Below are positions 20,920 through 39,918 of a stretch of 64,000 nucleotides of DNA, piece after piece (position 1 is the first letter of the stretch; every line of letters begins with the position of its first letter). The DNA lies in assembly GCF_018802605.1 (NCBI RefSeq), contig NZ_CP069161.1, positions 1,736,001-1,800,000 on the forward strand, in the 5' to 3' direction. A program made the translations under genes and the position numbers. The stretch is from Paludibacterium paludis. Lineage in GTDB: Bacteria; Pseudomonadota; Gammaproteobacteria; Burkholderiales; Chromobacteriaceae. The notes below the pieces were generated by a model. That model made no database searches and was not told the DNA's origin. It saw only the letters and a list, made by a program, of their open reading frames with translations.

Positions 20920-22053
20920 ATGAAAACACTCTCCCGAATTTTTCTGGCCGCCACCCTGGCGCTGCCCGTTTTGTCTCACGCCGCTTTCGTGCCCCCGGTT
21001 CCCGAAATCGCCGGCAAGGCCTACTACCTGACCGACTTCTATAGCGGCCAGGTGATCGCGCAGAAAGATGCCGACAACCGCATCGAACCGGCATCGCTGA
21101 CCAAGCTGATGACGGCTTACCTGACCTTCAAGGCGTTGCACGAAAAGCGCCTGACGCTGGAGCAGACCCTGACCGTGTCCACCAAGGGCTGGAAGATCGA
21201 AGGCTCCAAGATGTTCCTCGATCCCAAGGTGCCGGCGCGTGTCGATGACCTGATCAAGGGCATGATCGTGCAGTCCGGCAATGACGCCTGCGTGACGCTC
21301 GCCGAAGCGATCGCCGGCAGCGAGGAAGTCTTCGCCCAGATGATGAACGCCGAGGCACGGCGTCTGGGGATGAAGAACACCCAGTTCCGCAACGCCACCG
21401 GCCTGCCGGATCCCGAGCATTACACCACCGTGCACGATCTGGCCATCCTGTCGGCATCGATCATCCGCGACTTCCCCGAGTTCTATCCGATCTACTCGAT
21501 GAAGTCCTTCACGTATAACAACATCAGCCAGCCGAACCGCAATCTGCTGTTGTACCGCGACCCCAACGTCGACGGCATGAAAACCGGTCATACCGACGGG
21601 GCCGGTTTTAATCTGATCACCTCCGCGCACCGCGACGGTCGTCGCGTGCTGTCCGTGGTGGTCGGCACCGCGAGCCCCGAGGCGCGCGCGGCGGAAAGCT
21701 CGAAACTGATCAACTACGCCTTGCAGTTCTTCGAAACGCCCAAACTCTATACCGCGAACAAGCCGGTATCGACGCTCGGTCTTTACAAGGGCGCCAAGGG
21801 ATCGCTGAATGTCGGCTTCACCTCCGATATTTTCGCGACGGTCGGCAAGGGCGATGCGGCCAAGATCAAATCGACGATCGATATCAAGCAGCCGCTGATC
21901 GCGCCGGTCAAGGCCGGACAAGCCGTCGGCAAACTGACGGTGACGCTGGACGGCAAGGTGATCGAAGAGCGTCCGGTCGTGGCGCTCGAGACGGTCGAAG
22001 AGGGTGGTTTCTTCCGCCGTTTGTGGGATGCGATCCGCCTGCTGTTCAAGTAA
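20920..22053 (+). CDS. dacC: D-alanyl-D-alanine carboxypeptidase (PBP5/6 type)
   Basis: 377 residues. The enzyme trims the terminal D-Ala from peptidoglycan pentapeptides in the periplasm. A signal peptide ends at LSHAAF (about residue 22). Active-site motifs: ASLTKLM (SxxK, about 55), SGND (SxN, about 115) and KTGHTDGAG (KTG, about 219). The C-terminal PBP5_C beta domain follows, and the last residues RRLWDAIRLLFK form an amphipathic membrane anchor as in PBP5. The start at 20920 gives the normal signal peptide. It stands upstream of ybeD-lipB-lipA, a common order. Confidence 0.93.
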   Translation: MKTLSRIFLAATLALPVLSHAAFVPPVPEIAGKAYYLTDFYSGQVIAQKDADNRIEPASLTKLMTAYLTFKALHEKRLTLEQTLTVSTKGWKIEGSKMFLDPKVPARVDDLIKGMIVQSGNDACVTLAEAIAGSEEVFAQMMNAEARRLGMKNTQFRNATGLPDPEHYTTVHDLAILSASIIRDFPEFYPIYSMKSFTYNNISQPNRNLLLYRDPNVDGMKTGHTDGAGFNLITSAHRDGRRVLSVVVGTASPEARAAESSKLINYALQFFETPKLYTANKPVSTLGLYKGAKGSLNVGFTSDIFATVGKGDAAKIKSTIDIKQPLIAPVKAGQAVGKLTVTLDGKVIEERPVVALETVEEGGFFRRLWDAIRLLFK

Positions 22054-22083
22054 CGCGAACCGCTATTGCAAGGAATCCAGGCA

Positions 22084-22353
22084 ATGACTGAAGCACGCAC
22101 GGAACTGCTCGAGTTCCCCTGCCGTTTTCCGCTCAAGATCATGGGCGAAAAACATGAAGCCTTTACACTGACCATCATCGAGGTCGTGCGCATGCACGCG
22201 CCGGATCTGATGGAGCATGATGTCGACAGCCGTGACAGCAGCAGCGGCCGCTACCAGTCCCTGACCGTGACCGTTAACGCCGTGTCGCGCGAGCAGCTGG
22301 ACGCGATCTATCTTGCTCTGACGGGACACCCGATGGTCAAGGTGGTGCTCTGA
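22084..22353 (+). CDS. ybeD: DUF493/YbeD-like small regulatory protein
   Basis: 89 residues, family-typical size. The ACT-like fold is indicated by [14 protein letters not shown] at the start, the central [18 protein letters not shown], and [11 protein letters not shown] at the C-terminus. The protein usually sits between dacA/dacC and lipB, as here; its role is not established. The gene follows dacC by 30 bases and its TGA is one base before the lipB GTG, so the three genes are likely one transcript. Confidence 0.88.
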
Positions 22354-22354
22354 C

Positions 22355-22984
22355 GTGAGCCGGCTGATCAAGCATTTGGGACTGGTCGACTACGAACCCA
22401 CCTGGCGGGCCATGCAGGCGTTCACCGACGGGCGCGACGAGCGGACCCCGGATGAAATCTGGCTGGTCGAACACCCTCCCGTCTTCACGCTGGGGCTGGG
22501 CGGCAAGGAAGAGCATCTGCTGTGCCCGACGTCCATTCCCCTCGTGCGCACCGACCGGGGGGGACAGGTCACCTACCATGGCCCCGGACAACTGGTGGCG
22601 TATCTGATGATCGACTTCAAGCGCATGCAGATCGGGGTGCGCGAGCTGGTGCGCCGCATCGAGCAGGCACTGGTGGACACGGTGGCCGAGTACGGTATCC
22701 GCGCCAATGGCGACGTCGACGCGCCCGGGGTGTACGTGGACGGCGCGAAGATCGCGTCGCTGGGGCTGCGGATCCGCAACGGCGCCGTGTACCATGGGCT
22801 GTCGCTCAATGTGGACATGGATCTGACACCGTTTACCTGGATCAATCCTTGCGGTTATGCTGGCCTCAAGGTGACCCAGTTGAAAGATCTGGGGATCGAT
22901 ACAACGGTCGACGAGGTCGCCGCCAGGCTGCTGCCGCACCTGGAGCGCCATCTGACCGTGACAATGGAGAAGGCAAGCGCATGA
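22355..22984 (+). CDS. lipB: Octanoyltransferase
   Basis: 209 residues. It moves octanoyl groups from acyl carrier protein to lipoyl domains, the first step of lipoate synthesis. Family marks: [17 protein letters not shown] (about 68-84), [14 protein letters not shown] with the catalytic Lys (about 130), and the catalytic Cys in [14 protein letters not shown] (about 170). It starts with GTG one base after the ybeD stop and its TGA overlaps the lipA ATG, so translation is coupled. Nothing unusual. Confidence 0.96.
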
Positions 22985-23928
22985 AAACAGATAACCAGGC
23001 CGGCGTGAAGCACAAGGGCGCGGCCAAGACGGCGCGGATTCCGATCAAGATCGTGCCCCTTGAAGAAAAACTCAAAAAGCCGGAATGGATCCGCGCCAAG
23101 TTGCCCACCGGCACGCGCTTTAACGAAATCAAAGCGATCCTGCGCGAGCAGAAACTTCACACCGTGTGCGAAGAAGCGACCTGTCCGAATATCGGGGAAT
23201 GCTTCAGCAAGGGCACCGCGACGTTCATGATCATGGGCGATATCTGCACCCGGCGCTGCCCATTCTGCGATGTCGGTCATGGCCGCCCCAATCCGCTGGA
23301 CCCGCAAGAACCGACCCATCTTGGCCAAACCGTGGCCGCCATGCGCTTGCGCTATGTGGTGGTGACCTCGGTGGATCGCGACGATTTGCGCGACGGCGGC
23401 GCGGGTCACTTCGCCGAATGCATCGGCAAGGTGCGCGAATTGTCGCCGGGGACCCAGATCGAAGTGCTGGTCCCGGATTTCCGCGGTCGTCTGGATGTCG
23501 CCATCGATATCCTCAGCGAAACCCGCCCCGATGTGATGAACCACAATCTGGAAACCGTGCCGCGTCTTTACAAGCAGGCCCGCCCCGGCGCCGATTACCA
23601 GCATTCGCTGGATCTGCTCCGTGACTACAAGGCGCGCAACCCCGATGTGCTCACCAAATCCGGTCTGATGGTCGGACTTGGGGAGACCGACGAGGAAATC
23701 CTCGAGGTGATGCGCGATCTGCGTGCCCATGGTGTCGACATGCTGACGATCGGGCAGTATCTGCAACCGTCCGGCGGACACCTGCCGGTGCTGCGCTATG
23801 TGCATCCCGATACCTTCCGCATGTTCGAGGAGAAGGCCCGGGAAATGGGGTTCAAGCACGCCGCCGTCGGCGCCATGGTGCGCTCCAGCTATCACGCCGA
23901 CCAGCAGGCGCATGGCGCCGGGGTGTGA
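22981..23928 (+). CDS. lipA: Lipoyl synthase
   Basis: 315 residues, radical-SAM enzyme that inserts two sulfurs into octanoyl groups. The auxiliary cluster motif [12 protein letters not shown] (about 66-77) and the radical-[11 protein letters not shown] (about 92-99) are both complete, and the closing [10 protein letters not shown] supplies the Ser ligand of the auxiliary cluster. ATG overlaps the lipB stop. The stop codon is the notable point: its last codons GTG TGA are duplicated at 36845-36850 on the far side of a 12.9-kb Tn7-like element, so the element inserted exactly at the end of lipA without changing the protein. Confidence 0.97.
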
Positions 23929-23937
23929 TGACGATTC

Positions 23938-23987
23938 CAACGCTCATGGCGACTGAACAACGCTAATTTGTACTCTACATCGCTAAT
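23938..23987 (+). repeat. Left-end TnsB-binding repeats
   Basis: Three copies of a motif CA(A/T)CGCT(C/A)AT start at 23938, 23958 and 23978, exactly 20 bases apart. The same motif recurs in opposite orientation at the right end. This matches the arrays of TnsB sites at Tn7-like ends; the assignment is by position and repetition. Confidence 0.7.
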
Positions 23988-24007
23988 CGCTACTGAAAGG
24001 GGCGGAT

Positions 24008-25708
24008 ATGCGGAGGGCTATACCGAAGATCAGAGAGTTTCCGGATGATGGCCGAATCTGGAGGGTGGACTGGTTTGGTGGTGTAGAGCGCAATCCTCAG
24101 ATTCCTTCTGAACCGAAAATCCAACTCATCATCAGCCCGGTGGTTGCTGGCGCTACCGACTATGCTGCTACCAGCGCGGTCAATCATGAAGAACGACGCT
24201 CGATTAGCATCGGCGTCGGCCAGCTCCCTCTCGTAACGATCGGTTCCCTCTGGCAAAACCGCCACTGTCTTGTTGAAATCGCCGGCAAGACCAAGACCTT
24301 CGACAATCTCGTCATCTCACCCGAAACGGTTCGTTTGCTGAAATCCGATGCTCTGGTGGAAGGGCAGTCCCTCATTCGCAAGAAGTACCACCAGATCGGC
24401 GTTGGGCTTGCGGCAAACTGCCTGGCGATCGAATGGCAGGGCGACCCCTACGGCATCATCATCCCGGCAGCTGAGATCATTCGTTTTTACTATGCAACGT
24501 CAACCGATCTCGCCAAAGCCATTTTCGCCGGCGATTTTCGACATGAGCTGGGCTCGATCGTGAATCCGGCGGAGTGTGGTTATTTCGAGCAGGAGAGACG
24601 CGGCAGACTCAAGCTGCGCAAGGAATTTGCCGATGCGGATGCCTATGTTATTGGCCGCATCTTGTTTAGCCCTGAAGCGTTCAAGGGTACCGCCCTGGTG
24701 CATGACTCGATGATCAAGCAAGCGGTGCAGGGCAAGTCCCGCTTGTATCCAGAAGCTGCGTTTCCTTTCTCAGGGAAGACTAACTTACGGGTGCGCATGA
24801 AGTCGATGAAGGCTCCGGATGAGGAGCGCTGGCGTTTCATTGTCTTTGCCGTGGAGTACTGCACGGGGCCATTTCCATTCAGTGCAATCACCTGTGATCG
24901 AGATAACAGCAACCTGCGGCCGGAAGAAGGTCATGATCAGCCGGACGAATTGAAAGCACCTGCTTACCCTCGCAAGCAGCAATCGGGAAAGGATGTTACC
25001 GATGGTGAATTGCAGAGCGATGAGGATGCCTCCAAGGAGGTCCAGTCGGCTGTAATTGATCTGCCGGAGGAGCGATTTGGCGCGCTGGCAAACATGGAGT
25101 TAGAGAAACCAGAGAAAGACATTTGCCACTATTTCAATGCAGGAAGTGTTCGGCCTCTTGCACTCCCGACGGATGTGCTAGGTACGGGAGATGGTAATTA
25201 CTCTAATGACGTCGTGACCCCAACGTCAGCCGAAGTTAAGCATGTGCGCCAAGAGGCTTTGCCGGCAAGCTTTGCAAACTTCGAGGCGATGGTGAGGCAT
25301 CTGGATGGATTGCCTGGGTGCCAGGCAAGGATTCGTCCCAGAACTGATGCCATTGCTTACATTCCACTGACAAAACCAAAGCGCACGTGGCAGTGGGCTT
25401 ACTTTCATTCTGGGACGCAGCAAAGACGCGCTGTTATCGTTGCTGATATTGTGAGAGAAGGACATGAATGCAATTTGATCGAGTTTCAGTGGCGTGAAGG
25501 AGAGTCGTTCAAGCTTGCTATGGTGTCTTTGCCGAGTGGGGGCAAGCTTAGTGATGAGCAGCTTTATCTATTACTTCGTATGCTGGCTAAACAAGATGGT
25601 CGTTGGGAAAACACAAAGCCATTACCGGGAAATATCTGTTTGATAACGCTTAAACATACTTGGCCTTCAGTAGATGCTTGTGTTCAAGCTGTAATATCAA
25701 AGATTTAA
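24008..25708 (+). CDS. TnsE-like target-selection protein
   Basis: 566 residues, near the 538 of Tn7 TnsE. Resemblance is by pattern rather than close identity: REFPDDGRIWRVDWF at the start parallels the TnsE N-terminus, YGIIIPAAEIIRFYYATS (about 140-157) parallels the IPQLELARSLF region, and a charged linker (about 300-380) is followed by a C-terminal domain starting FANFEAMVRHLDGL (about 418) like the TnsE_C start FAAFDELLSIL. TnsE directs Tn7 to replicating DNA and mobile plasmids. AAAGGGGCGG precedes the ATG. It stands alone at the left end on the opposite strand from tnsABC-tniQ, unlike Tn7. Identity with TnsE is inference and needs a profile search. Confidence 0.6.
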   Translation: MRRAIPKIREFPDDGRIWRVDWFGGVERNPQIPSEPKIQLIISPVVAGATDYAATSAVNHEERRSISIGVGQLPLVTIGSLWQNRHCLVEIAGKTKTFDNLVISPETVRLLKSDALVEGQSLIRKKYHQIGVGLAANCLAIEWQGDPYGIIIPAAEIIRFYYATSTDLAKAIFAGDFRHELGSIVNPAECGYFEQERRGRLKLRKEFADADAYVIGRILFSPEAFKGTALVHDSMIKQAVQGKSRLYPEAAFPFSGKTNLRVRMKSMKAPDEERWRFIVFAVEYCTGPFPFSAITCDRDNSNLRPEEGHDQPDELKAPAYPRKQQSGKDVTDGELQSDEDASKEVQSAVIDLPEERFGALANMELEKPEKDICHYFNAGSVRPLALPTDVLGTGDGNYSNDVVTPTSAEVKHVRQEALPASFANFEAMVRHLDGLPGCQARIRPRTDAIAYIPLTKPKRTWQWAYFHSGTQQRRAVIVADIVREGHECNLIEFQWREGESFKLAMVSLPSGGKLSDEQLYLLLRMLAKQDGRWENTKPLPGNICLITLKHTWPSVDACVQAVISKI

Positions 25709-25837: not shown

Positions 25838-27553
25838 TTAGTTTTTGCAATAGGCCCACTCGAGTAAAGGCTGTGTATTAGCAACTAGTGTATCAATTTC
25901 TTGTTTGTTAGGTTTGTAATTTCCGTGAGAGATGCTGTTTAATAAAATGATGCTGTCAAATATTTTAGCGACACCATTTGCTTTGATTGCTTGGACAACC
26001 TTCTGATCCTTGCTGTAGTGAAAAATTTTATTGATTGTGGGGGTCTTTGGCCCTAGTTGACCAACTTCATTTTTGAGTTTGGTGAATATGGTATGTATTC
26101 CATCTGCCGAGTAGTTTTGGTACTCATTAGGATGTTTGTCTTTTATCCTGTTAAGAATTCCTTGCTCTAAAATTATCCTCAAGCAGAGTGCTGTCCCGAT
26201 GTATCTTGCGGAAGTATAAAGTCGCACGGACTCATCGATAATATCTTTTAGTCCAATATAATTGGTCTGTTCCCCTAAACTTTTCAAAAAAGACTGAATT
26301 GTTGGGGCCGATGGAGGAGGCTGATCGCTATTGTTCTGGCCTTGGTTTGTGGCCGGAGAAGTGGGCTGAGCTGTTCCTCCTTGTGGTGTTGTAGGATTGT
26401 GAGGTGCAGTAGGTTTGGGTTTAGTGTGCGGTGGTTTAATGTTCTGCTCTTTTTCCGCTTCTTCTCTCGTGGCTACAACTTTAGGTGTTTCTTTTGTTCG
26501 GTATGCTTGTGCTTGTTTCTGCAGATCGTGCATTCCTGGAGTGGCCTCGATCTGAGCAAAGAAGTGTTCTTCGTTGAACTCAAACTTATCTTTCGTATAA
26601 CTTATGGGTTGCCCATCTAAAAATAACTCGCCATAAATGCGTTGGCGTCCATATTTATTTCCCGTTTTGAATAGTTTGTTTGGGATGTATGGAGTTCTTG
26701 TGGTGCCATGAATTACTCGACCATTTCTGAATAATACAAGCCCAGGGTTTGTTACATAGCTACCTTCCTTGAGTAGCATTATGTCGCCAGTTACTAAGTG
26801 GCCATTCATGACAAATTCAATAGGGACGCTCCATGTTTTTGGGGCGCCAATAGCATAAAGCTGTCCCTTTATGGTTTCATAAACAGGGGTGACTAGCACT
26901 TCGTTGTTGTTTTCGAAAATTAACTTTTCTTCTTTTTCATCGTAACTGAAATATATGCTTATGCGTTCTCTTGATATAAATCTTTGATAGATTTCAGTAA
27001 TGTCCTTCTTGATCTCTTGATATTTTTTTGGATCAATAGGTTTTCTAATATTCTTTAGAGAAATTTTTGTGTAATTCTTTTCTATGCTAGCTTGCTCTTG
27101 AACTTGTATTTTGCTGCTTCCGCTGTTAAGCAAATTCTCTAGATTGAAATCTGTTGTTAACTTGTTAGACTCAGAGAGCGGTTTTGTTTCTAGAGTCCAG
27201 TTATCAGCGAACCAAACCGCAGCAGCTTTCATCCCTATGCCGAATTCGCTAAGCCCCTTGTTTTGCGGCTGCTTTGCGGGCTTTAGTGCGGCCTCAAGTT
27301 TTGCTTTTTGAATCCCCGGGCCATTATCACTTATGATTATGGAATTTTTTAGCTTGTCGTTTATGTATTGTTCTGAATAAATTTTAACGTGAATTTTAAG
27401 TTCATTTTCAGGATTTGGATTCTGTGCTGATTCTATTTGATATGCATGAATGGCATTGTCAATGAACTCTGCCAAGGCGTAAGCAGGTTCATAGCCTTGG
27501 TTTTTTAAAAGAAGATACATGGACATGTCAGGCGATATGTTTACCGAGAACAT
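25838..27553 (-). CDS. GHKL (MORC/MutL/Hsp90-like) ATPase with C-terminal helical domain
   Basis: 571 residues. The GHKL ATP-binding fold is clear: EFIDNAIHA (N box, about 28), SDNGPGI (G1, about 74) and GLSEFGIGMKAA (G2, about 100). A second ribosomal-S5-like domain follows to about 340. A Pro/Thr/Gln-rich linker (about 365-410) leads to a helical C-terminal domain (about 425-565) with RIILEQGILNRIKDKHP and LNSISHGN, which looks HEPN/DUF4145-like. No nuclease motif is evident. It follows the methyltransferase by 38 bases on the same strand. GHKL ATPases linked to cytosine methyltransferases are described in restriction-modification-like operons related to MORC proteins; a role in defence is inferred from that. 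Confidence 0.75.
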   Translation of the reverse strand: MFSVNISPDMSMYLLLKNQGYEPAYALAEFIDNAIHAYQIESAQNPNPENELKIHVKIYSEQYINDKLKNSIIISDNGPGIQKAKLEAALKPAKQPQNKGLSEFGIGMKAAAVWFADNWTLETKPLSESNKLTTDFNLENLLNSGSSKIQVQEQASIEKNYTKISLKNIRKPIDPKKYQEIKKDITEIYQRFISRERISIYFSYDEKEEKLIFENNNEVLVTPVYETIKGQLYAIGAPKTWSVPIEFVMNGHLVTGDIMLLKEGSYVTNPGLVLFRNGRVIHGTTRTPYIPNKLFKTGNKYGRQRIYGELFLDGQPISYTKDKFEFNEEHFFAQIEATPGMHDLQKQAQAYRTKETPKVVATREEAEKEQNIKPPHTKPKPTAPHNPTTPQGGTAQPTSPATNQGQNNSDQPPPSAPTIQSFLKSLGEQTNYIGLKDIIDESVRLYTSARYIGTALCLRIILEQGILNRIKDKHPNEYQNYSADGIHTIFTKLKNEVGQLGPKTPTINKIFHYSKDQKVVQAIKANGVAKIFDSIILLNSISHGNYKPNKQEIDTLVANTQPLLEWAYCKN

Positions 27554-27591
27554 TTTTTAGCCCTTATTTTCTTGATGATAATGTGGTGCCT

Positions 27592-28923
27592 TTAAAGCAG
27601 TCTTTTTGCTATTTCTTCAACTATATGAGCATTAACTGCATTGCCAAGAGCTTTGAAAGCTCTGGCGCGAATCGATGGAAGAAATTTCAACCCATCTAAT
27701 GCTTGAAGTGTTGCTGCTTCTCTTGCCTCTAAATATCTTTTATGTCTTCCAACTATTGGAATTTGCGTTGTGGTCATGGCAATAAGTGAAGGGGCCATTT
27801 CTGGTTTCATTACACGAATGCCTGATGCTCTAAATTGAATAGTGTGCTGCCAAATGTCTGGAATTTTTCTGTCTCCACGCCATTCAAATTTTTGCCAACT
27901 GTTTGGAAATTCTTTTAATTCCTGCTTCCATATATCAAAAAAATCTTTATGTTTTTCATAAATGGAGCGTGAATATTTTATTGAGGAGTGCATCCACTTT
28001 GGTGCCGCTCCATTTTCATTCTTGGATGCGTAATGCGGGAGCGCTTGAATCGCATCTTCTCTGGTAAGGTAATTTGAGAGAGGAGTACCAAAAGCGCCTG
28101 CATGTATGTTCCAGTCCTCGTTTGGCAGGCCTTCTAAAGGGTAGGTTGCACCGAATTCCGATGCGATAATTGTCAAGCTTGAAAAATTTTCTAGCCTACG
28201 GATAGTTTCATTCCATTTCTCCAATGCACGGAGCTTTCCTGGTTCGATGGGCCGGGCATCTTTTGTTTCTGAGTTTATTAATTCATATATTGGTTTTATT
28301 CGATCAATTTTTGGGGCTGGCCAAGAGAAATCTTCTAGCCCAGTTCTGGATGCGACAACAAATAAGCGGAGGCGTTGCTGAGGAAGGCCGAATTGGGTTG
28401 GAGAATATATTTTATATTGAACTTCATATCCAAGGTTTTTGAAATTATCTTTAATATATTGCCAAAAGCTTCCATTTGCAATGGTGAGTACATTCGGCAC
28501 ATTCTCCAGTAAAACATATTTTGGATTATGGTGTCTGATAATGCGAAACACATCATCGATCAATTTTCCGGATTCTGGACAGGCGGCGCCTTTCTTTTTT
28601 CCTGCAAGTGAAAATGGTTGGCAAGGGAATCCAGCGCATAAAATTTCATGGGCTGGAATTTTTTTCTCGTCAACATTTCTTATGTCGCCTTCAGGAAGTA
28701 ATCCAAAATTTTTGTGATATAAATCCCTTAGGCCGTCATCTAGCTCGCAAGAAAAGACGCATTGATGCCCTGTGTTCTCCAGTCCAACATGAAATCCACC
28801 GAGTCCTGCGAATAGGTCTACAAATTTATACGAGCGCGAAGGGGGGGGGGGGCGAGACTTGGTCCTGGTGACGGCGCCTGCAAACGGGGTGTCGTAAGGT
28901 TCCCCTTGGGGGAGGAAGTCCAT
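27592..28923 (-). CDS. DNA (cytosine-5-)-methyltransferase with a phase-variation tract
   Basis: 443 residues. m5C-MTase motifs run in order: VDLFAGLGGFHVGLE (I), AGFPCQPFSLAG with the catalytic Cys (IV, about 98), LLENVPNV (VI), QQRLRLFVVA (VIII), a target-recognition region (about 215-370), and ALGNAVNAHIVEEIAK (X). AGGGAG precedes the ATG at 28923. Codons 25-29 contain a run of 12 C (28841-28852 on the plus strand as G), coding Arg-Pro-Pro-Pro-Pro. Slippage by one base would cut translation before motif I, and no later start lies ahead of motif I, so expression should switch on and off. In the sequenced state the frame is open. It pairs with the GHKL ATPase. Confidence 0.93.
   Translation of the reverse strand: MDFLPQGEPYDTPFAGAVTRTKSRPPPPSRSYKFVDLFAGLGGFHVGLENTGHQCVFSCELDDGLRDLYHKNFGLLPEGDIRNVDEKKIPAHEILCAGFPCQPFSLAGKKKGAACPESGKLIDDVFRIIRHHNPKYVLLENVPNVLTIANGSFWQYIKDNFKNLGYEVQYKIYSPTQFGLPQQRLRLFVVASRTGLEDFSWPAPKIDRIKPIYELINSETKDARPIEPGKLRALEKWNETIRRLENFSSLTIIASEFGATYPLEGLPNEDWNIHAGAFGTPLSNYLTREDAIQALPHYASKNENGAAPKWMHSSIKYSRSIYEKHKDFFDIWKQELKEFPNSWQKFEWRGDRKIPDIWQHTIQFRASGIRVMKPEMAPSLIAMTTTQIPIVGRHKRYLEAREAATLQALDGLKFLPSIRARAFKALGNAVNAHIVEEIAKRLL
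28841..28852. repeat. G12 homopolymer in the methyltransferase 5' coding end
   Basis: Twelve G in a row on the plus strand, read as poly-C in the gene. It is the only long homopolymer of G or C in the window and lies about 72-83 bases into the coding sequence, where slipped-strand mispairing causes phase variation in other bacteria. Confidence 0.85.
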
Positions 28924-28938
28924 GTGTTCTCCCTGCGG

Positions 28939-28967
28939 TTGACTGTTATTGTTTCGTACGATACATT
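28939..28967 (+). promoter_or_regulatory. Sigma-70 promoter and palindrome before the SprT-like gene
   Basis: TTGACT (28939-28944) and TACATT (28962-28967) are separated by 17 bases. The expected start point falls on the ATG at 28974, and no ribosome site precedes it, so the message may be leaderless. The palindrome TCGTACGA (28954-28961) sits between the boxes, in the 50-bp gap shared with the divergent methyltransferase, and could be an operator for both. Confidence 0.55.
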
Positions 28968-28973
28968 TTAATA

Positions 28974-29720
28974 ATGAGACATGATAACGTCAACCCCACT
29001 GCTGATTTATATGCGCAATTGATGCATGTGGCAGATCATTTCAATCACAAGCTTTTCGATGGCGCCTTGCCAGAAATGATGTTCACTTTACATAGAGAGA
29101 GGCATTCGGCGGGCTATTTCTCAGCCGAACGGTGGCGACACTTAAGTGGCAAAAGTGTTAGCGAAATTGCACTAAATTCAGCTTATTTTGCAAATAGATC
29201 TTTGATTCAATTGCTCCAGACGATCGTGCATGAGCAGTGCCATCTCTGGCAGCATCATTTTGGTGCCCCAAGTCGCGCAGGGTATCATAATGCAGAATGG
29301 GCTCATAAGATGGAAGAGGTCGGGCTTGTTCCAAGTTCTACTGGTCAACCTGGAGGGAAGAAGACAGGCCAAAAAATGGCTGACTATCCTGCTTCGGGTG
29401 GAAAATTTCTTTTGGCTTGTGTAGAGCTAGTCAAAGATGGGTTTTGTCTTTCATGGATTGATAGAGGTTTTAATGGGGGCAAGGTAAGTAGAAGTTCCGT
29501 GAGTGGTGTGTTGGACATCGAGGATATGTTAGGAGATAAGCTCTTTGCTCCTATCGGGAAGTACTTTACTGATTTTCATTTGAATGAAAATGCTGATGTT
29601 GTCTTGAAGAAAAGAAAAGTAAAGTATTTTTGTAGTTCTTGTCAGGCTAATGTTTGGGGGAAAAAAGGGCTGCAAATTATGTGTATGAAATGTAATAAAC
29701 TATTTGTCGTTTATGAGTGA
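28974..29720 (+). CDS. SprT-like zinc metallopeptidase
   Basis: 248 residues. The SprT-like domain carries the zinc motif TIVHEQCHLWQHHFG (HExxH form, about 86-100), with a third ligand probably in YHNAEWAHKM (about 105). The C-terminus is a zinc ribbon: FCSSCQANVWG and IMCMKCNKLF (two CxxC pairs, about 218-245). Relatives (SprT, Spartan) cut proteins bound or crosslinked to DNA. It is divergent from the methyltransferase across a 50-base promoter gap with a palindrome, and so probably belongs to the same cassette. The central GFNGGKVSRSSVSG segment is not assigned. Substrate unknown. Confidence 0.82.
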   Translation: MRHDNVNPTADLYAQLMHVADHFNHKLFDGALPEMMFTLHRERHSAGYFSAERWRHLSGKSVSEIALNSAYFANRSLIQLLQTIVHEQCHLWQHHFGAPSRAGYHNAEWAHKMEEVGLVPSSTGQPGGKKTGQKMADYPASGGKFLLACVELVKDGFCLSWIDRGFNGGKVSRSSVSGVLDIEDMLGDKLFAPIGKYFTDFHLNENADVVLKKRKVKYFCSSCQANVWGKKGLQIMCMKCNKLFVVYE

Positions 29721-30144: not shown

Positions 30145-31152
30145 TCAACTACATGTTGTGTTTGTCATGGTGCGAATGGACTCGATGTACCAGTCTGGAC
30201 AATCGTCGAAGTCCTTGAAAAGGACGTTGTAACGGACTGCCTTGTCACGGTGTGCGGCTTTCAGTCGATGTGGCCAGTGGTGGATTAGCCACCATGCCAA
30301 ACCAATGATGTGGTGCCTTTCGCTAATTGGACGTTGCTCGAAAGTCGGCATGCCAGTCGTTAGTTCTGGCAGGGGATGGCCGGTTTGCGCGCAAAGGTAC
30401 GGATGCAGCTTGAGTGCCAAGCGTTGAGACACGCACAGCGCGCAAAAATGATGCAGGATTGCGAGCCGATCACTCATTTGCTGCAGGGCATGAGGTATCG
30501 GCGAGGATAGTAGTTCAAGTGCATGTTGCCAGGAAGTGAAGATCTCACGGTTCCATTGGTCAACTGGATCGGTCTGGGCTCGCGTCAGATCGAATGCGCA
30601 ATGGCTACAGATGTTCAACGCGGCAAACGCCTCTTGATCAGGATGGCCTAGGTCGGTGCGGTGGAATGCGACGCCCTTGCCGCAAGCCGGGCAGCGATCG
30701 AGCAGCATGACACCATGGATCGGGCAAAAGGTGTGGAAGGCGACGCGCCAAGCGCGGTGATAGTACGGTTCATTGGCTGTGGCCAAGCAGAGCGGGCAGA
30801 ACTGCAAACCGTGCCCCAAGCGTGTTCGGTGGTAGATATTGAGCGGCAGTATCCAGCGTAATTGACCGGATTGACTCTGCTGTCGGAATACAGTGCCAAG
30901 TAAGGTCTGCAGTGTTGTTGCTAAGACTCGTTCTTCGTCTTGTCCTGTTCGCAATGACACAAGGTTCAACAACCAGGTGGGTGCACCCCGGTCGATATCG
31001 CGATTCCAAATTTGGTAGTGTGCGCCGAATTCGTGTTGGCAGAAGGTTTGAACCTTCAACCCATTTGCATGGGCCGTCCGTACCAACCAGCAGGATAACA
31101 ACTCGTCCGGAAGAGGATGGGGGTGAGCTGGCCAACGCTGACCGGATAGCAT
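30145..31152 (-). CDS. tniQ: TniQ/TnsD-like target-site protein
   Basis: 335 residues, shorter than Tn7 TnsD (508) and nearer to TniQ. The N-terminal TniQ domain starts LPDELLSCWLVRTAHANG (about 14-31). Zinc ligands appear as FCPLCL (about 119), FHTFCPIHG (about 140) and DRCPACG (about 152), with a second CxxC-like pair (ICSHC, about 184). Such proteins recognise the target site and recruit TnsC. As the only TniQ here and with insertion at lipA, it presumably recognises the lipA 3' end; this is inference. It starts four bases after the tnsC stop. Confidence 0.88.
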   Translation of the reverse strand: MLSGQRWPAHPHPLPDELLSCWLVRTAHANGLKVQTFCQHEFGAHYQIWNRDIDRGAPTWLLNLVSLRTGQDEERVLATTLQTLLGTVFRQQSQSGQLRWILPLNIYHRTRLGHGLQFCPLCLATANEPYYHRAWRVAFHTFCPIHGVMLLDRCPACGKGVAFHRTDLGHPDQEAFAALNICSHCAFDLTRAQTDPVDQWNREIFTSWQHALELLSSPIPHALQQMSDRLAILHHFCALCVSQRLALKLHPYLCAQTGHPLPELTTGMPTFEQRPISERHHIIGLAWWLIHHWPHRLKAAHRDKAVRYNVLFKDFDDCPDWYIESIRTMTNTTCS

Positions 31153-31156: not shown

Positions 31157-32044
31157 TTAGCCGTTTGTTATGAGAAGCCGTTTACGGTCTGACGGCGACA
31201 CCCAGTGAATGGCCTTCAGTATGCCCACGTCGATGTATTCACGTCCGCTCTCTATCGCGGCGATCGCTGCTGCTGTCAGCAGTTGGGACAGCTCACCAAT
31301 ATATCCTTCGCTGAGTGCAAACAACTGGGTAGCTATGGATGTGTCGTGCAGAGCCGAGGGCTCACGCAACGGCAGCATGCGCTCGAAGCTGGCCAACAGG
31401 CGCAGAAAGTCGGTATCAAATTCCCAGCGTGGCAGCAGCGCAGGTTCGAACCGGTTTGCCAATTGTGGGTCGGTTTGCAGTGCGCGGAAGGCATCGCGGG
31501 TGCCGACAGCCACGATTGGAACCTGTAGCTCATTGCCCAGGTACTTGAGTACGTTTAAGAAGGCACGCTGCCGGTTCAGGTTTCCAGCCAGAACATGATG
31601 GATCTCATCGATGATCAGCATGCGCAGCCCGACATATTTCAGCAGCTTGATGACCTGGAATTGCTTCTTGTCTACTCGATCGTTCGGCTTGTAGGGCGCA
31701 AACAGCAGCTCAAGGATGGCGTTGTAGAAGCGCCCTTCATCGGGAACCGGCGGCGCCTGCATGCACAGCACCGGTACGCGGATGCCATCGCCTTCAGGGT
31801 TGTCGTCGGCAGGATGTTGGGTGCAGAACCGCTGTACCAGCATGGTCTTGCCGTTGTTGGTGTCGCCGACTACCAGCAGGTTGGGCATGCGGTGCGATTG
31901 CGGATAGGTCAACAGATCTTCCAGCTTGGACAGGATGGCTTTCGCTTGCGGGTAGCCGATCCAGCGCGGTGCGCGAATACGCTCGATCCGCTCGGCATCG
32001 CTGAGCGCGAGCAACTTGAGGGTCGATTCGTTCAAGTGGCTCAT
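31157..32044 (-). CDS. tnsC: TnsC/TniB-like AAA+ ATPase
   Basis: 295 residues, the size of TniB rather than Tn7 TnsC (555). Walker A is GDTNNGKTML (about 62-71), Walker B is RMLIIDEIHHVLAG (about 140), and the sensor region AVGTRDAF follows (about 176). TnsC-type ATPases form filaments on target DNA and link the target selector to the transposase. ATG overlaps the tnsB stop (ATGA), so expression is coupled. The small size suggests the compact Tn5053-like or Tn6022-like branch in this subunit, although TnsA is present. Confidence 0.92.
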   Translation of the reverse strand: MSHLNESTLKLLALSDAERIERIRAPRWIGYPQAKAILSKLEDLLTYPQSHRMPNLLVVGDTNNGKTMLVQRFCTQHPADDNPEGDGIRVPVLCMQAPPVPDEGRFYNAILELLFAPYKPNDRVDKKQFQVIKLLKYVGLRMLIIDEIHHVLAGNLNRQRAFLNVLKYLGNELQVPIVAVGTRDAFRALQTDPQLANRFEPALLPRWEFDTDFLRLLASFERMLPLREPSALHDTSIATQLFALSEGYIGELSQLLTAAAIAAIESGREYIDVGILKAIHWVSPSDRKRLLITNG

Positions 32045-33918
32045 GTCAGGTCATCCATTTCATCAAATGGCAGGATGGCCGGCGTCGTCTGTATCGGCAT
32101 TGGGATTGGTGCTGTCCTTGGCTCAACCTGCTCGGCAGGCGGGCGGGGCACCTCTTGGTTATTTTTCCGGCGCTGCGCGGCTCGCCGGGTCGACATGGTT
32201 TTTGCCTGGGCCGTCTGCTCGATCTCACGCATGCGATCGTAGGCCTCAAATAGCTCTCTTTCCTCGATGTGACGTCTGCCGTCAGCCTCGGCACGACGCT
32301 TGGCCTCGCGCATTTCCCAAATGCTGATAGGCGGGTGCGATGTGTTTCGGTAGGGAATGGGGTAGTAGACATTCACCTCGGGGTCGTAAAACCAAACCGT
32401 ACTGATGTCGCGCGGGTCGCGCCGGAACATGAATTTGCGTTTGTATTTTGGAGCGACCGGGTCAGGGGCGTTGATCCAGCGGCGCAGCACGTCGTGATAG
32501 TAGTGGATCTCGTCGATCACCACGCCGTAGTCCTGCACCGTGCGTTCCTCGTAGGGCATCAGGTCGAGCCGCAGCCGGTTCTCATCGGTCATTCTTGCCG
32601 GCAGTCCGCGGCCCGGCGTGTCCTTGGTACCGAAGACGCCTTGGCGGTATTTCTCCATCGGCGACATGTTGAGGCTGGAGTGCACGCGCTGGTGATAAAC
32701 ACTGACGATGAACGTCACCAGCCACTCCTCGAACTCGGTCAGCGTCAGTGCCGCCTTGCCCACTGAGTCGTAGTCTCCGCGTTCTCGGGCATTCGAAAAG
32801 GTGGTGCCCGGCAAGGTATGGATCTCCTTGGCAAAAGTGCCAAGAAGTCGTTCGATGTGCCCGCCGAAATGGGGGCGCGCCACCGGGCGCCATTCGATAT
32901 CGATGCCATATTCGTCGCAGGCGCGCTTCAGCATGTTGCCGCGAAACTCTTTGGCATTGTCCATGTGCAGCTTCGCGGGTACGCCCCAGCACGGCCATTC
33001 GCCTTTGATGCCGTGCTTAGCCAGCCAGGCGTCCTTGGGCAGGATGGCGTTAGCGAGGCACTGGCCGGTAGACAGCGCGCCAGGCGGGTCGAACGACACG
33101 TAAAACCCGACAACCATCCGGCTGAAGACGTCGATAGCGAGCGTGATCCACGGACGGCCAACTGGGCGCCGGTCGATGTCGTCCACCAGGATGATGTCCA
33201 GCGGCGTGTGATCGATCTGAACGACGGCCAAGGGCCAGTCGGCGCCTGGGAAGCTGCCTTCGATTGGCGAATAGGCATGGTCGGCGGCTTTGCGGCCCTT
33301 GCGCTTGGTCATCACCTGTTCACCGGCAAGTTGCTTGAGGCGATTGCGTATGGTGTTGTCGTGCGGAGGTTCGAATCCTGCATGTAAGCAACGCTTGCGC
33401 ACTTCGTCGCACACCTTCTGTTGCGACTTGCGCTGCTTGGTCAGGTATTCGCTTTCCACGACTGCCTGAATGATGGTTTCGATTTCCGGCAAGAACTTGG
33501 TGGCGCCTTTGTCGCTGCGAGTGCGCGGTAGTAGGGCGGTCAGCAAGTGGCTGTCGTCGTATCGCTGTATCCACTCGTAGAGTGTATTCGTATGGTGGCC
33601 GAACAGCTTACCGCGCTCGGTGACGTCTTGCCGGCTGCGATCCGGTTTGTCGAGCAATGGGCGGATGATTTCATAGCGCCGTTTGGCTTCTTCCCAGTCT
33701 TTGTCGAGCACTTGCAGCAGCTCGGGACGGTTTGCAGGCTGCGCATTACCGACTACCGCTTCCAACGCGGATACCTTGGCATGGCAGACCTGGTCGGTTT
33801 CCTCATCGATCAGCAGCACCTCATCCAGATCGAGCACATGGGTAATGCGATGAAGCCGGTTTTGATAGATGACCGCGGTCCCTGGTTGCAGCTGCAGCAT
33901 CGTACTCGGCGTATTCAT
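32041..33918 (-). CDS. tnsB: TnsB-like DDE transposase
   Basis: 625 residues. The retroviral-integrase fold carries the DDE triad: AVVQIDHTPLDIIL (Asp, about 233), LHMDNAKEF (Asp, about 317) and HFGGHIERLLG (Glu, about 353). A C-terminal Mu-type beta barrel and a basic tail that would contact TnsC (about 560-625) follow; N-terminal helix-turn-helix domains precede. I chose the ATG at 33918 because it overlaps the tnsA stop (ATGA); a longer frame upstream lies inside tnsA. It would bind the repeats at 23938-23987 and 36730-36835 and join the 3' ends to target DNA. Confidence 0.95.
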   Translation of the reverse strand: MNTPSTMLQLQPGTAVIYQNRLHRITHVLDLDEVLLIDEETDQVCHAKVSALEAVVGNAQPANRPELLQVLDKDWEEAKRRYEIIRPLLDKPDRSRQDVTERGKLFGHHTNTLYEWIQRYDDSHLLTALLPRTRSDKGATKFLPEIETIIQAVVESEYLTKQRKSQQKVCDEVRKRCLHAGFEPPHDNTIRNRLKQLAGEQVMTKRKGRKAADHAYSPIEGSFPGADWPLAVVQIDHTPLDIILVDDIDRRPVGRPWITLAIDVFSRMVVGFYVSFDPPGALSTGQCLANAILPKDAWLAKHGIKGEWPCWGVPAKLHMDNAKEFRGNMLKRACDEYGIDIEWRPVARPHFGGHIERLLGTFAKEIHTLPGTTFSNARERGDYDSVGKAALTLTEFEEWLVTFIVSVYHQRVHSSLNMSPMEKYRQGVFGTKDTPGRGLPARMTDENRLRLDLMPYEERTVQDYGVVIDEIHYYHDVLRRWINAPDPVAPKYKRKFMFRRDPRDISTVWFYDPEVNVYYPIPYRNTSHPPISIWEMREAKRRAEADGRRHIEERELFEAYDRMREIEQTAQAKTMSTRRAAQRRKNNQEVPRPPAEQVEPRTAPIPMPIQTTPAILPFDEMDDLT

Positions 33919-34571
33919 TTGCGAAGGCTCCAGATTGGGCTGCTCATCGTCAGTTTGGTCGAAAGGTCGGTACCGATTTGGCGGGTGCCGACTAAGTACC
34001 AGAGGGACGGGAGCAGGCGTGCCTGATTCCATTGATCTTGGAATGCCGACTCCAGTAGCTCTGACGGCGTAGTTCGGCGCAATTGGCGCAGTCGCTCATC
34101 GAGCAGATCCATGTGCGCATCCTCGACCGGGCCTTGTCGGACGAATGGCAACAGGAACTTGGCGTTGTCGAGATAGGGAGTGCGGATCTCTACCTCGGTG
34201 ACGATCTTGAAGCGCCATCCTTGGGGACGGGCGAAATGCACGGCAGCACGCAGTTTGGGCCGCAGCTGTAACCAGTCATTGCGCAGTTCGTCGCGGTATT
34301 TGACCTCGTAGAGCGTTTTGCTGCTCTGCCCATGCGGCAGATTGAATGTAGCGAGAACGTCGGGGGTGTAGCGGCGCGGTTTGCCGTCCGAATCCGTCCA
34401 GTCGAGCGTCAGCGGCTGAACTTCGAAAGTTTCGACAGCCGGGTCGAATTCCAGCAGGGCGATGAAATCGCGCTCCAGCGTCGATTCGAACATGGCCGGG
34501 CCGTCGGCTTTGGCGTGTGCAGCAATGCCGGTCACGTTGCGGTAGTTTTTGGGGATCTTGCGCACGGGCAT
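33915..34571 (-). CDS. tnsA: TnsA-like endonuclease
   Basis: 218 residues. Restriction-like TnsA fold: FESTLERDFIALLEFD (catalytic Glu, about 33), RRYTPDVLATF (Asp, about 67) and TLYEVKYRDEL (E-V-K with the catalytic Lys, about 92). A C-terminal part (about 140-215) should contact TnsC. TnsA cuts the 5' ends so that the element moves by cut-and-paste; its presence separates this element from replicative Tn5053-type relatives. It is first in the tnsABC-tniQ operon. The divergent OLD gene starts 186 bases away, so a promoter lies between. Confidence 0.93.
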   Translation of the reverse strand: MPVRKIPKNYRNVTGIAAHAKADGPAMFESTLERDFIALLEFDPAVETFEVQPLTLDWTDSDGKPRRYTPDVLATFNLPHGQSSKTLYEVKYRDELRNDWLQLRPKLRAAVHFARPQGWRFKIVTEVEIRTPYLDNAKFLLPFVRQGPVEDAHMDLLDERLRQLRRTTPSELLESAFQDQWNQARLLPSLWYLVGTRQIGTDLSTKLTMSSPIWSLRK

Positions 34572-34757
34572 GATCGGCCTCTCAGCTCACTGCATAAATG
34601 TCATCTGTCAGCCCAACTCAGTACACAATAGCACTGTGAAATTAGGGTTGGTGCGACAAAACGATTGTGGGTGGCTGTTGCATGATGTATGTCATAGGAA
34701 TTTCATTGTTTGTATAGTAATTTCAATGGCATTGTCATCCCGTCAGAGATCAAACAC

Positions 34758-36686
34758 ATGCGTATCAAATCGTTGTTGATCCGGAATTTCCGCTCAATTT
34801 CTGAAGCCACAATTGATTTTGATTCCTTCAACTGTCTGGTTGGGCCCAATGGCGCAGGCAAATCCACAATTCTCTGCGCACTCAATCTTTTCTTTCGTGA
34901 AACGGAAAACGCATCGACTGATTTGTTGTCGCTGACAGCCGAAGATTTTCATAAGCGAGATACGTCACAGCCCATTGAAGTGCAGGTTACTTTTACTGAG
35001 CTGAGTGCAGAGGCGCAGGATGATTTGCAAGAGTACGTCCGGCATGATCAGTTGGTGATTTCGGCTGTGGCCACCTACGATCCCCAATCGGAGCGCGCCC
35101 AGGTCAAACAGTATGGTCAACGTCTCGGCATGGCGGCCTTCAAGCCATTTTTTAAAGCGCTGGGTGACGATGCCAAGGTAACTGAGTTGAAGGGCATCTT
35201 TGCTACGCTACGCGAGCAATTTGCAGATTTACCCGCAGCAACCACCAAGGATGCAATGATTGGTGTCTTGAGGGAGTATGAGGCGGCCCGCCCCGGTGAA
35301 TGCGAGCTCATTCCGAGTGAAGATATGTTCTACGGCGTTAGCCGTGGCAGCAACCGGCTGCAGAAGTACATTCAGTGGATCTACATTCCGGCTGTCAAAG
35401 ACGCCTCTCAGGAGCAGTTGGAGGGTAAAAATACGGCTCTGGGACGGTTGTTGGCACGGACGGTGAGAACCCAGGTGAATTTCAAGGAATCGGTCGACGC
35501 GCTGTTACAGGATGCTCGTGATAAATACGATGAAATGCTGGGACAGCAGCAAGACGCTCTGGCTGCACTCTCGACAGCATTGACAGATCGCCTGAGCCAA
35601 TGGGCGCATCCCGACGCAAGTATCCGGCTGGAGTGGCACTTGGACCCGCAACGTGCGGTTAAGATAGAGGAGCCATTCGCACATGTAATCGCTGGGGAGT
35701 CTGGTTTTGAGGGCGAGTTAGCGCGTTTCGGACATGGTTTCCAACGGTCGTATTTATTGGCGCTTCTGCAAGAGTTGGCTGGCAATGATCAAGGTGATGC
35801 TCCGACCTTACTGCTGGGGTGTGAAGAGCCCGAGTTGTACCAACATCCCCCACAAGCTAGGCATCTGGCCGCGATTCTGTATGCTCTGGGCCAGGGTAAC
35901 GCACAAGTGATCGTCACTACCCATAGCCCCTATTTTGTGATCGGTGAGCAGTTCCATCATGTGCGTATGATTCGAATGGATCATGAAGCGCGTTACAGTA
36001 CAGTTAAATGTGCTTCCCAAGCGTTGCTGGCCGAGCGCTTCGCGGAAGTGACTGGAGATCCATTCAGAGAGATCAGCGCGTCTGTTGCCCGGGTGCACCA
36101 AGCTTTGCAACCATCCTTGGGCGAAATGTTTTTCACTCAACGACTGGTGCTGGTTGAGGGGCTCGAAGATATCGCCTATGTGCATGCCTGGCTGACGTTG
36201 ACAGATCGGATGGAGGAGTTCCGACGTAAAGGAATTCATTTGGTGGCCACGCAGAGCAAGTCAATGATGATTCGTCCACTGATCATTGCTCAGGCTTTGG
36301 AAATTCCGACCTATGTCATCTTTGATGCTGATGGCGACAGAATTGATAGGCCTGAACACCGCGTTCAACATGAGCGAGATAATAGAGCCTTATTGCGCCT
36401 GATAGGCGCCGATGATGGCAACTTGTTTCCTGAGGGTATCTTGTGGGGCGCGCGCCATACCGTGTGGCCGAAGAACCTTGGTGATTGCATTTTGGGGGAA
36501 TTGAAAGACTCGTTAGGTCAAGATGGATATTCGGCGGTGATCAATACGGCTGCGCGCGAATACGGCTTTGATGGCGGGCTTAAAAAACATGCGTTGATGG
36601 TCGGTACTCGCTTGGCGCTGGCGTTCGAGGCCGGCGCAAGGTCAGCTAGCCTGGATAGGCTCTGTGAAGCCATTATTGCCATGTGA
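34758..36686 (+). CDS. OLD-family nuclease (AAA ATPase + TOPRIM)
   Basis: 642 residues from ATG at 34758. N-terminal ABC-type ATPase: RIKSLLIRNFRSI, Walker A VGPNGAGKST (about 32-41), a long coiled insertion (about 90-300), FGHGFQRSYLLALLQEL as signature-like segment, LLGCEEPELYQHP as Walker B and VTTHSPYF as H-loop. C-terminal TOPRIM nuclease: LVEGLEDIAYV (about 466) and VIFDADGD (about 528). OLD nucleases act in phage defence, for example GajA of Gabija and P2 Old. No UvrD-like partner follows, so it is a solitary class 1-type OLD protein. It is cargo between tnsA and the right end. Confidence 0.88.
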   Translation: MRIKSLLIRNFRSISEATIDFDSFNCLVGPNGAGKSTILCALNLFFRETENASTDLLSLTAEDFHKRDTSQPIEVQVTFTELSAEAQDDLQEYVRHDQLVISAVATYDPQSERAQVKQYGQRLGMAAFKPFFKALGDDAKVTELKGIFATLREQFADLPAATTKDAMIGVLREYEAARPGECELIPSEDMFYGVSRGSNRLQKYIQWIYIPAVKDASQEQLEGKNTALGRLLARTVRTQVNFKESVDALLQDARDKYDEMLGQQQDALAALSTALTDRLSQWAHPDASIRLEWHLDPQRAVKIEEPFAHVIAGESGFEGELARFGHGFQRSYLLALLQELAGNDQGDAPTLLLGCEEPELYQHPPQARHLAAILYALGQGNAQVIVTTHSPYFVIGEQFHHVRMIRMDHEARYSTVKCASQALLAERFAEVTGDPFREISASVARVHQALQPSLGEMFFTQRLVLVEGLEDIAYVHAWLTLTDRMEEFRRKGIHLVATQSKSMMIRPLIIAQALEIPTYVIFDADGDRIDRPEHRVQHERDNRALLRLIGADDGNLFPEGILWGARHTVWPKNLGDCILGELKDSLGQDGYSAVINTAAREYGFDGGLKKHALMVGTRLALAFEAGARSASLDRLCEAIIAM

Positions 36687-36729: not shown

Positions 36730-36844
36730 AAGATCGTTGTAAATGGCTGCTGGATACAAAGGAACGATGTATGTCAGTAGCGAGTAGCGATGTAAAACGT
36801 GTAGGAAAATTTACTTTCAATACAGATGAGCGTTGGAAGTCACA
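36730..36844 (-). repeat. Right-end TnsB-binding repeats
   Basis: Reverse-orientation copies of the left-end motif occur at 36826-36835 (ATGAGCGTTG), 36783-36792 (AGTAGCGATG), 36760-36769 (AGGAACGATG) and 36731-36739 (AGATCGTTG). Spacing is looser than at the left end (43, 23 and about 30 bases), as is usual for asymmetric Tn7-like ends. The terminus reads GGAAGTCACA at 36835-36844. Confidence 0.7.
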
Positions 36845-36922: not shown

Positions 36923-37185
36923 GGGGCGCTGCAAGCCGAAGCCCCTTCCAGCAGCAGAGTCCTCGGGGTAACCGTTAGCCCAGCAAGCCCGGTGGCCGGC
37001 CTTCAGGGGAATGCCGACCGTGGTGTGGCGATGTCAGGGCGCTGTGTCCGCCGGCTTGCGGGGTAGCCCGAGATGCCTGGCTATCGACTGTGCATGGTTT
37101 GCCGCGATCGGAGTTTCCTGGCGTCAAGCACCGGCGGGAAGAATCAATGTGTGGCAGTAACGTATGACGATATGGAACGATCCTG
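36923..37185. other. Gene-free remnant behind the fossil transposon end
   Basis: GC-rich sequence with no supported frame. It may be what is left of the older element or the original DNA downstream of lipA. No tns-like peptide was recognised. Confidence 0.35.
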
Positions 37186-37210
37186 AGCCGCAGCGGTGCT
37201 GCGGCTTTTT
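37186..37210 (+). terminator. Rho-independent terminator, plus strand
   Basis: AGCCGCAGC-GGT-GCTGCGGCT followed by TTTTTAT. It reads on the plus strand. With the Tn7-like DNA removed, lipA would be the nearest plus-strand gene, so this may be the original lipA terminator, now displaced. Confidence 0.75.
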
Positions 37211-37397
37211 ATTTGTCCGGATGCGTTCCCATCGCTTTTTCGAGTAGCGCCATGGCAGCCTTGATCTGCCCTTTTCCGCGCGCGGCCCGGACTTGAAAGC
37301 GGGTTTCCGCATCGAACTCGGCCAGCATCAAGGTGACCATGTCCTCCGCGCAGGCTGAAGCGCCAACCCGAACGTCCGGATTCGTTAATCCCCACAT
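37209..37397 (-). CDS. Possible small protein (62 residues)
   Basis: ATG at 37397 lies 13 bases after the kinase stop and the frame ends just beside the terminator. The sequence starts MWGLTNPDVRVGASACAEDM and continues with a helical, Ala/Arg-rich part (FQVRAARGKGQIKAAMALLE). No ribosome site and no known family. Kept because it fits the gap and is transcribed in line with the kinase; it may not be real. Confidence 0.35.
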   Translation of the reverse strand: MWGLTNPDVRVGASACAEDMVTLMLAEFDAETRFQVRAARGKGQIKAAMALLEKAMGTHPDK

Positions 37398-37409
37398 GGT
37401 TCGCGGGGT

Positions 37410-38822: not shown

Positions 38823-38824
38823 GG

Positions 38825-39484
38825 CTACGCCTCGCGCAACCGGTAACCGAGGCCGCGTACGGTCTCGATGGTGTCCGGCGGCAGTTTCTTGCGCAGCCGG
38901 CCGATGAAGACTTCGATGGTGTTGGAGTCGCGGTCGAAGTCCTGGGCGTAGATGTGCTCGGTCAGCTCCGCGCGCGAGACAATGGTGTTCGGTCGATGCA
39001 TCAGGTAGTCCAGCACCATGTACTCATGGCTGGTCAGAGCGATGGGACGGCCATGAGCCGTGACTTTGCCGCTGCGGGTGTCCAGGCACAGACCTCGGCA
39101 TTCGAGCAGGGGAGAGGCCAGGCCGTGGGCCCGGCGGATCAGGGCGCGCACCCGGGCCAGTAACTCTTCCATATGGAACGGTTTGGTCAGGTAATCGTCC
39201 GCCCCGGCGTCGATGCCCTCGACCTTCTCGTGCCAGCTGTCCCTGGCGGTCAGGATCAGGACGGGCATGTTCCGGCGGCAAGAGCGCCATTTTTTGAGAA
39301 CCGAGATGCCATCCAGACCGGGCAATCCCAGATCCAGGACAACCGCATCGTAGTCTTCCGTTTCGCCAAGAAAGCATGCATCCACGCCGTTGCCGGCCGG
39401 ATCCACGACATAACCGGCCAGGAGCAGCCCGTCGTAGAGCTGCTGTCGCAATGTCGGTTCGTCTTCAACAAGCAAGAGTTTCAT
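38825..39484 (-). CDS. OmpR-family response regulator
   Basis: 219 residues. Receiver domain with VEDEP (acidic pocket), VVLDLGLPGLDG (phospho-Asp near 51) and LTKPF (Lys near 101), then a winged-helix DNA-binding domain ending NTIEVFIGRLRKKLPPDTIETVRGLGYRL (quoted in two parts: NTIEVFIGRLRKKL and IETVRGLGYRL). Its start overlaps the end of the PepSY gene by four bases. A set of 11-bp-spaced direct repeats at 39880-39918, in the divergent promoter region, is the likely binding site. Confidence 0.93.
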   Translation of the reverse strand: MKLLLVEDEPTLRQQLYDGLLLAGYVVDPAGNGVDACFLGETEDYDAVVLDLGLPGLDGISVLKKWRSCRRNMPVLILTARDSWHEKVEGIDAGADDYLTKPFHMEELLARVRALIRRAHGLASPLLECRGLCLDTRSGKVTAHGRPIALTSHEYMVLDYLMHRPNTIVSRAELTEHIYAQDFDRDSNTIEVFIGRLRKKLPPDTIETVRGLGYRLREA

Positions 39485-39834: not shown

Positions 39835-39879
39835 GGTGGTTCCCGTGTCGGATACGGCTGCCATTTTAGGGTGGCGAGT

Positions 39880-39918
39880 CTGAACGCGGGCTGAACACCC
39901 GCTTCAGACGGCTTTCAG
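39880..39918. promoter_or_regulatory. Candidate response-regulator binding repeats
   Basis: CTGAAC repeats at 39880 and 39891, and TTCAG repeats at 39903 and 39914, each with an 11-base period, one pair per direction. PmrA/QseB-type regulators bind hexamer-N5-hexamer direct repeats of this spacing. The region separates the PepSY-regulator-kinase operon from the cytochrome operon. Confidence 0.55.

Follow-up and report, generated by a model that had tools for sequence, protein, structure and literature searches.

The closest described relatives of the locus studied here are restriction systems built around MORC-type GHKL ATPases. In the third operon type of prokaryotic MORC restriction (Iyer, Abhiman, Aravind 2008, PMC2292703), as given in the parts of that paper drawn on here, a MORC GHKL-S5 ATPase with the motif GhXhhpXXRhl lies beside a cytosine methyltransferase (MTase) in a mobile setting, and helicase-less MORC-methylase neighbourhoods are already noted there. 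The consulted passages of a second source (Anantharaman et al. 2013, PMC3710099) note paraMORC-HEPN fusions, and propose the paraMORC-Ymh HEPN fusions of restriction-modification neighbourhoods as PrrC/RloC analogues. Our study concerns a window of 64,000 nucleotides from Paludibacterium paludis (contig NZ_CP069161.1, positions 1,736,001 to 1,800,000), in which a 5-methylcytosine (m5C) MTase gene and a MORC ATPase gene are placed 38 bases apart, with a SprT-family gene divergent over a 50-base gap; this gene set and spacing, described in an earlier note on the same DNA, were confirmed. Our reading, held with somewhat more confidence than doubt, is that the two genes form a compact system related to MORC-containing restriction-modification, which a Tn7-like transposon carries as defence cargo.

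The window ATPase resembles paraMORC-Ymh in joining a GHKL ATPase to a C-terminal HEPN-like domain near restriction genes, whereas it differs in being a MORC proper, in lacking the catalytic Arg and in having no match to Ymh among its Pfam hits at the cut-offs applied (comparison with the parts of PMC3710099 cited above). In Shedu VcSduA/paraMORC3, which defends against phage, a GHKL ATPase is also joined to a C-terminal effector, but this is a PD-(D/E)XK nuclease, and an MTase is not mentioned in the portion of text seen (PMC12137116). PD-lambda-5 (Vassallo et al. 2022, PMC9519451), as covered by the sections used, is likewise a two-gene system of an MTase and a second protein, whose C-terminal domain is related by profile to that of the window ATPase. 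Its MTase is of the D12 class (PF02086 in the B subunit of locus L135) whereas that of the window belongs to PF00145. In L135 PD-lambda-5 occupies the same cargo slot of a sister transposon; its A protein has a ParB-like N-terminus by eye, and direct alignment is not significant.

The compact MTase-MORC pair and its candidate effector

The window locus is one of 14 loci in a compact MTase-MORC clade (the window, L019-L029, L099 and L196), and the earlier proposal of a restriction-like module of these two genes is supported, with no nuclease detected. On a recount the core counts held, and adjacency stood at 63 of 65. No general third gene or cognate endonuclease was found across 13 compact loci at BLASTP 1e-6, which separates the pair from Type II restriction-modification, even though its m5C MTase has the catalytic motifs. 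Unlike the third MORC operon type, the compact loci also gave no restriction-endonuclease-fold PD-(D/E)XK gene by BLASTP to one relative and a shared-gene search, which could miss a very divergent nuclease. A nuclease domain within the ATPase, which the earlier note had said would make it an ordinary restriction enzyme, was looked for by domain searches including Pfam and was not found. The catalytic motifs of the MTase are invariant in 14 aligned proteins and m5C activity is predicted; homologues 47-60% identical to it retain the catalytic residues.

Among 12 aligned MORC proteins, E29, D32, N33, D76, G78, G80, G105, G107 and K109, which make up the GHKL ATP-binding motif of the prokaryotic MORC family, are invariant together with K321, and a pattern search found the S5-domain motif GhXhhpXXRhl in all 12. 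Homologues 31-44% identical to the window ATPase keep the catalytic residues. The best matching folds are SMCHD1 and MORC2/3, which places the window protein with the ATPase-module fold of eukaryotic MORC/SMCHD1. Eukaryotic MORCs are thought to entrap and compact chromatin. A nuclease-free epigenetic silencing, in which the MORC protein entraps and compacts unmethylated foreign DNA and the C-terminal helical domain only dimerises or binds the MTase, is an unlikely though appreciable alternative. It agrees with these folds, with the clade having no detected nuclease or general third gene, and with the DNA looping proposed for prokaryotic MORCs in the part of Iyer et al. 2008 (PMC2292703) used here.

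The C-terminal domain bears on both readings. Its predicted structure has a pLDDT (predicted local distance difference test) of 87.1, and HEPN-type folds form the top three rows of the fold comparison, with unrelated rows above AbiV. The catalytic R-x4-6-H of the HEPN superfamily lacks its Arg in 12/12 aligned proteins (L, M, S or G instead), which is a further point for silencing. Against it, N539 and H543 of an N539-xxx-H543 motif are kept in all 12, beyond the needs of passive dimerisation, and PD-lambda-5 and Type III restriction-modification are among the occupants identified in the cargo slot of sister elements. The PD-Lambda-5_A profile matches the C-terminal stretch only (E-value 0.0036 with the whole protein of the window and 9.3e-7 with the best member), with no full-length match. 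Ymh HEPN (PF09509) was not among the Pfam matches of eight members at E up to 5, where filters drop weak matches. The C-terminal domain of the window ATPase was found in none of 60 other genomes of the family at 1e-6. The HEPN-like C-terminus, earlier suggested as one of two possible effectors, is supported as the sole candidate effector domain within the MTase-ATPase pair. In the favoured restriction-like reading, the MTase would mark host DNA at one motif, a MORC dimer with ATP would close around DNA and report unmarked phage or plasmid DNA, and the paired HEPN-like domains would give the output, probably an abortive response of PrrC/RloC/PD-lambda-5 type.

A 12-C tract, of a kind found twice in the 4.07 Mb genome, lies in the N-terminal leader of the MTase, which is not conserved. 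Of the three frames after it, two end at stops after 4 and 6 codons. A change in tract length that is not a multiple of three would put the MTase out of frame, so slippage is a candidate means of switching the MTase off; if the tract does vary, host DNA lacking the mark would become exposed to the ATPase. The other 12-G/C tract (L112 3843-3854, G000 2257842-2257853) lies inside a 168-amino-acid open reading frame (ORF) resembling an insertion sequence transposase by eye.

Possible silencing by the tract would also suit a decayed MORC restriction operon, which no longer has its helicase and nuclease, whose remaining role is DNA modification or regulation, and in which the ATPase is an idle remnant. 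The closest relatives of the pair have three to four genes, the two genes are convergent in 2/14 loci, and the ATPase gene is broken in L099. Decay is nevertheless improbable, as the catalytic residues are intact in ATPases and MTases of the divergence given above, both trees set the compact clade apart by one branch rather than showing scattered losses, and a different C-terminal domain is present. At L099 (8001-10968, a viral contig) the gene interrupting the MORC gene encodes a transposase with HTH_38 and rve domains.

The SprT gene and its palindrome

The other effector proposed in the earlier note was the SprT peptidase, which would degrade DNA-bound phage proteins once the ATPase senses unmodified DNA. 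The divergent, palindrome-sharing layout in four loci and the intact HEQCH of the window and L019 would fit, but this role is very improbable. The slot before the MTase holds a divergent SprT gene in 4/14 loci (the window, L019 Herminiimonas, L020 Rhodanobacter and L023 Hylemonella), whereas most sister loci (L021, L024, L025, L027, L028, L029, L099 and L196; 8/14) have a helix-turn-helix (HTH)-like gene of 129-158 amino acids there and L026 an unrelated divergent small ORF; SprT was thus not found in nine loci, and L022, cut by a contig end, is undecidable. Moreover, HExxH is lost in two of the four linked loci, L020 (5839-6702) and L023 (5849-6631), where the zinc-ribbon cysteines are kept and the palindromes are perfect. 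The family is also held by 2612 plasmid records, and no MTase is annotated within the 3.5-8 kb shown around SprT in any of eight inspected plasmid loci. The expectation that the three genes might almost never co-occur, raised earlier as a possible refutation, does not hold for MTase and ATPase and is half borne out for SprT; the earlier interpretation as a whole is partly supported.

The window SprT itself has the HExxH and Cys4 ribbon of SprT/Mpr metallopeptidases. HExxH is intact in the window, L019, 8/8 plasmid copies and 11/11 viral copies, and C220/C223/C237/C240 of the ribbon are invariant in six aligned proteins. The palindrome earlier reported between the divergent SprT and MTase promoters was borne out, and is present in 4/4 SprT-MTase-MORC loci. 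The second hexamer of each promoter-like site in the window overlaps the palindrome, whose form TGTATCGTACGA(A/T)ACA lies 8, 15, 8 and 8 bp upstream of the SprT start in the four loci (for L020 and L023, with the start re-read by eye). The host genome has one site at 0-1 mismatch and one further at 2, which speaks against a regulator acting throughout the host.

The plasmid copies belong to the same family, and the same, a near or a similar palindrome lies upstream in 8/8 inspected loci (same or one-mismatch in L142, L145 and L005, variant in the other five). They are mostly placed by transfer, stability or partition genes, and MTase or MORC genes are annotated beside none; a restriction endonuclease gene adjoins SprT in L146, and a cytosine MTase lies ~5.6 kb from it in pPHE101. 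In 50 kb of pPHE101 there are three matches at <=3 mismatches against 0.05 expected; of its two exact palindromes, one is before SprT and the other inside an annotated TraD heading stb genes. The TGTATCGTACGATACA palindrome is associated with SprT-like genes in the window, plasmid loci L005, L142, L145 and L147, and 11 IMG/VR contigs.

A blind exact palindrome scan of IMG/VR returned 24 contigs, with a SprT-like gene on 11 (three identical, two more 92% alike). After merging near-identical contigs SprT was on 8/19, several still related at 72-84%. The palindrome is 5' of SprT in 10/11, where 19-603 bp separate it from the first codon in the alignment and a small ORF intervenes in some cases; L153 has the palindrome downstream. 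Scans with two control palindromes made up of the same letters yielded 10 and 8 contigs, with SprT on none. The simplest common factor is SprT itself or a regulator travelling with it. We therefore infer that SprT is a control part: the gene looks like one borrowed from plasmids and not the weapon, and together with the palindromic operator it may govern the two divergent promoters, that of SprT and that of the MTase. It can further be speculated, at rather low probability, that plasmid and phage SprT proteins are DNA-binding autoregulators of TGTATCGTACGATACA, so that an incoming element with the same regulon would alter MTase expression, unmarked DNA would accumulate and the MORC-HEPN response would trip, as a methylation tripwire.

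The Tn7-like carrier and what the pair may mean

Carriage by a Tn7-like element, as the earlier note had suggested, is supported by tnsA, tnsB, tnsC, tniQ and paired end repeats (Table 1), with an equivalent repeat pair in L136. The position of the repeats places the OLD-family nuclease inside the element. The locus is AT-rich against its surroundings, with a GC content of 0.41 across the MTase and ATPase genes and 0.42 in SprT, compared to 0.57 for the tns genes and 0.61 (22000-24000) and 0.64 (37000-41000) for the flanks. The host genome is a single 4.07-Mb contig, in which a genome search gave an ATPase copy number of 1.

Table 1. Features of the element and its cargo in the window
Feature	Position	Strand	Match or basis
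ORF holding lipA (lipoyl synthase); true lipA start inside ORF	22522..23928	+	Radical_SAM 3.2e-22, LIAS_N 5.1e-12
Left end repeat ATCGCTAATCGCTACTG	23969..23995	+	Inverted at 36775-36791, 1 mismatch
ORF566, conserved element gene adjoining lipA, candidate target selector	24008..25708	+	0 Pfam families
Prokaryotic MORC ATPase with HEPN-like C-terminus	25838..27553	-	
C-terminal helical HEPN-like domain, residues 419-571	25841..26299	-	Model and fold comparison
GHKL-S5 ATPase module, residues 1-365	26459..27553	-	Invariant residues in 12 aligned
m5C DNA methyltransferase	27592..28923	-	PF00145
12-C tract in MTase leader, candidate on/off switch	28841..28852	-	
Promoter-like site towards SprT, TTGACT-17-TACATT, palindrome overlapping	28939..28967	+	
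Palindromic operator-like site TGTTTCGTACGATACA, common to divergent promoters	28950..28965	.	
Promoter-like site towards MTase, TTGACG-17-TAAAAT, last base shared with palindrome	28965..28993	-	
SprT/Mpr-family protein, HEQCH and C-terminal Cys4 zinc ribbon	28974..29720	+	SprT-like 4.2e-12
TniQ	30145..31152	-	PF06527 2.2e-26
TnsC/TniB ATPase	31157..32044	-	PF05621 4.4e-79
TnsB transposase	32041..34032	-	Mu-transpos_C 1.7e-10, rve 0.00015
TnsA endonuclease	33915..34571	-	PF08722 5.6e-19
OLD-family ATPase-TOPRIM nuclease, second cargo, tnsA side	34710..36686	+	AAA_15 4.4e-47, OLD-like_TOPRIM 3e-10, PADLOC Old 2.2e-53
Right end repeat (inverted)	36775..36791	-	Pairs with left end

ORF566 homologues occur in 17/399 genomes of the order, its own included, and six such stretches were fetched for inspection. 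In the window, L021, L024, L025, L135, L136 and L137, ORF566 comes directly after lipA, and the cargo slot, tniQ and the tns genes come next in that order (to the stretch end); L138 has a related element with no lipA in the stretch, L139 lipA and an ORF566 remnant, and L140 an ORF566 homologue only. The slot of the seven lipA elements holds MTase-MORC in four, PD-lambda-5 in L135, Type III restriction-modification in L137, and a double-GHKL protein plus a cytosine MTase in L136. At L136 4866-9609, the 810-amino-acid double-GHKL protein and a 310-amino-acid protein with weak, sub-cut-off response-regulator and HEPN matches accompany the MTase, and neither protein has a PADLOC match at 1e-5. The pair has a fifth Tn7-like carrier in L196, whose TnsB (39%) and ORF566-like gene (27%) are more distant.

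In five other genomes of the genus, left-flank alignments end near the lipA end in three and reach into the left end in L198 and L200, where right-end-like sequence is also present; in these two it lies close to the left-end sequence after lipA, as though what is left of an element, or a short one, were sitting there. On the right, where a short target duplication was looked for, same-genus sequence takes up again near 37186-37228, and the junction is approximate. These comparisons suggest that the cargo arrived recently, at a previously used site.

The compact clade, the slot-swapping Tn7-like carrier beside lipA and the SprT-palindrome link were not found in searches of the open-licence literature, and lipA is not mentioned in the main text of two Tn7 surveys consulted. 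As the palindrome is common to plasmid SprT genes, it suggests a specific function, open to experiment, for a gene that is very frequent on plasmids. With a MORC and DNA-methylation module of two genes, against three or four in the relatives examined, the compact pair could show directly how DNA methylation is read by a MORC ATPase and how the protein acts next, a question that extends to the eukaryotic proteins.
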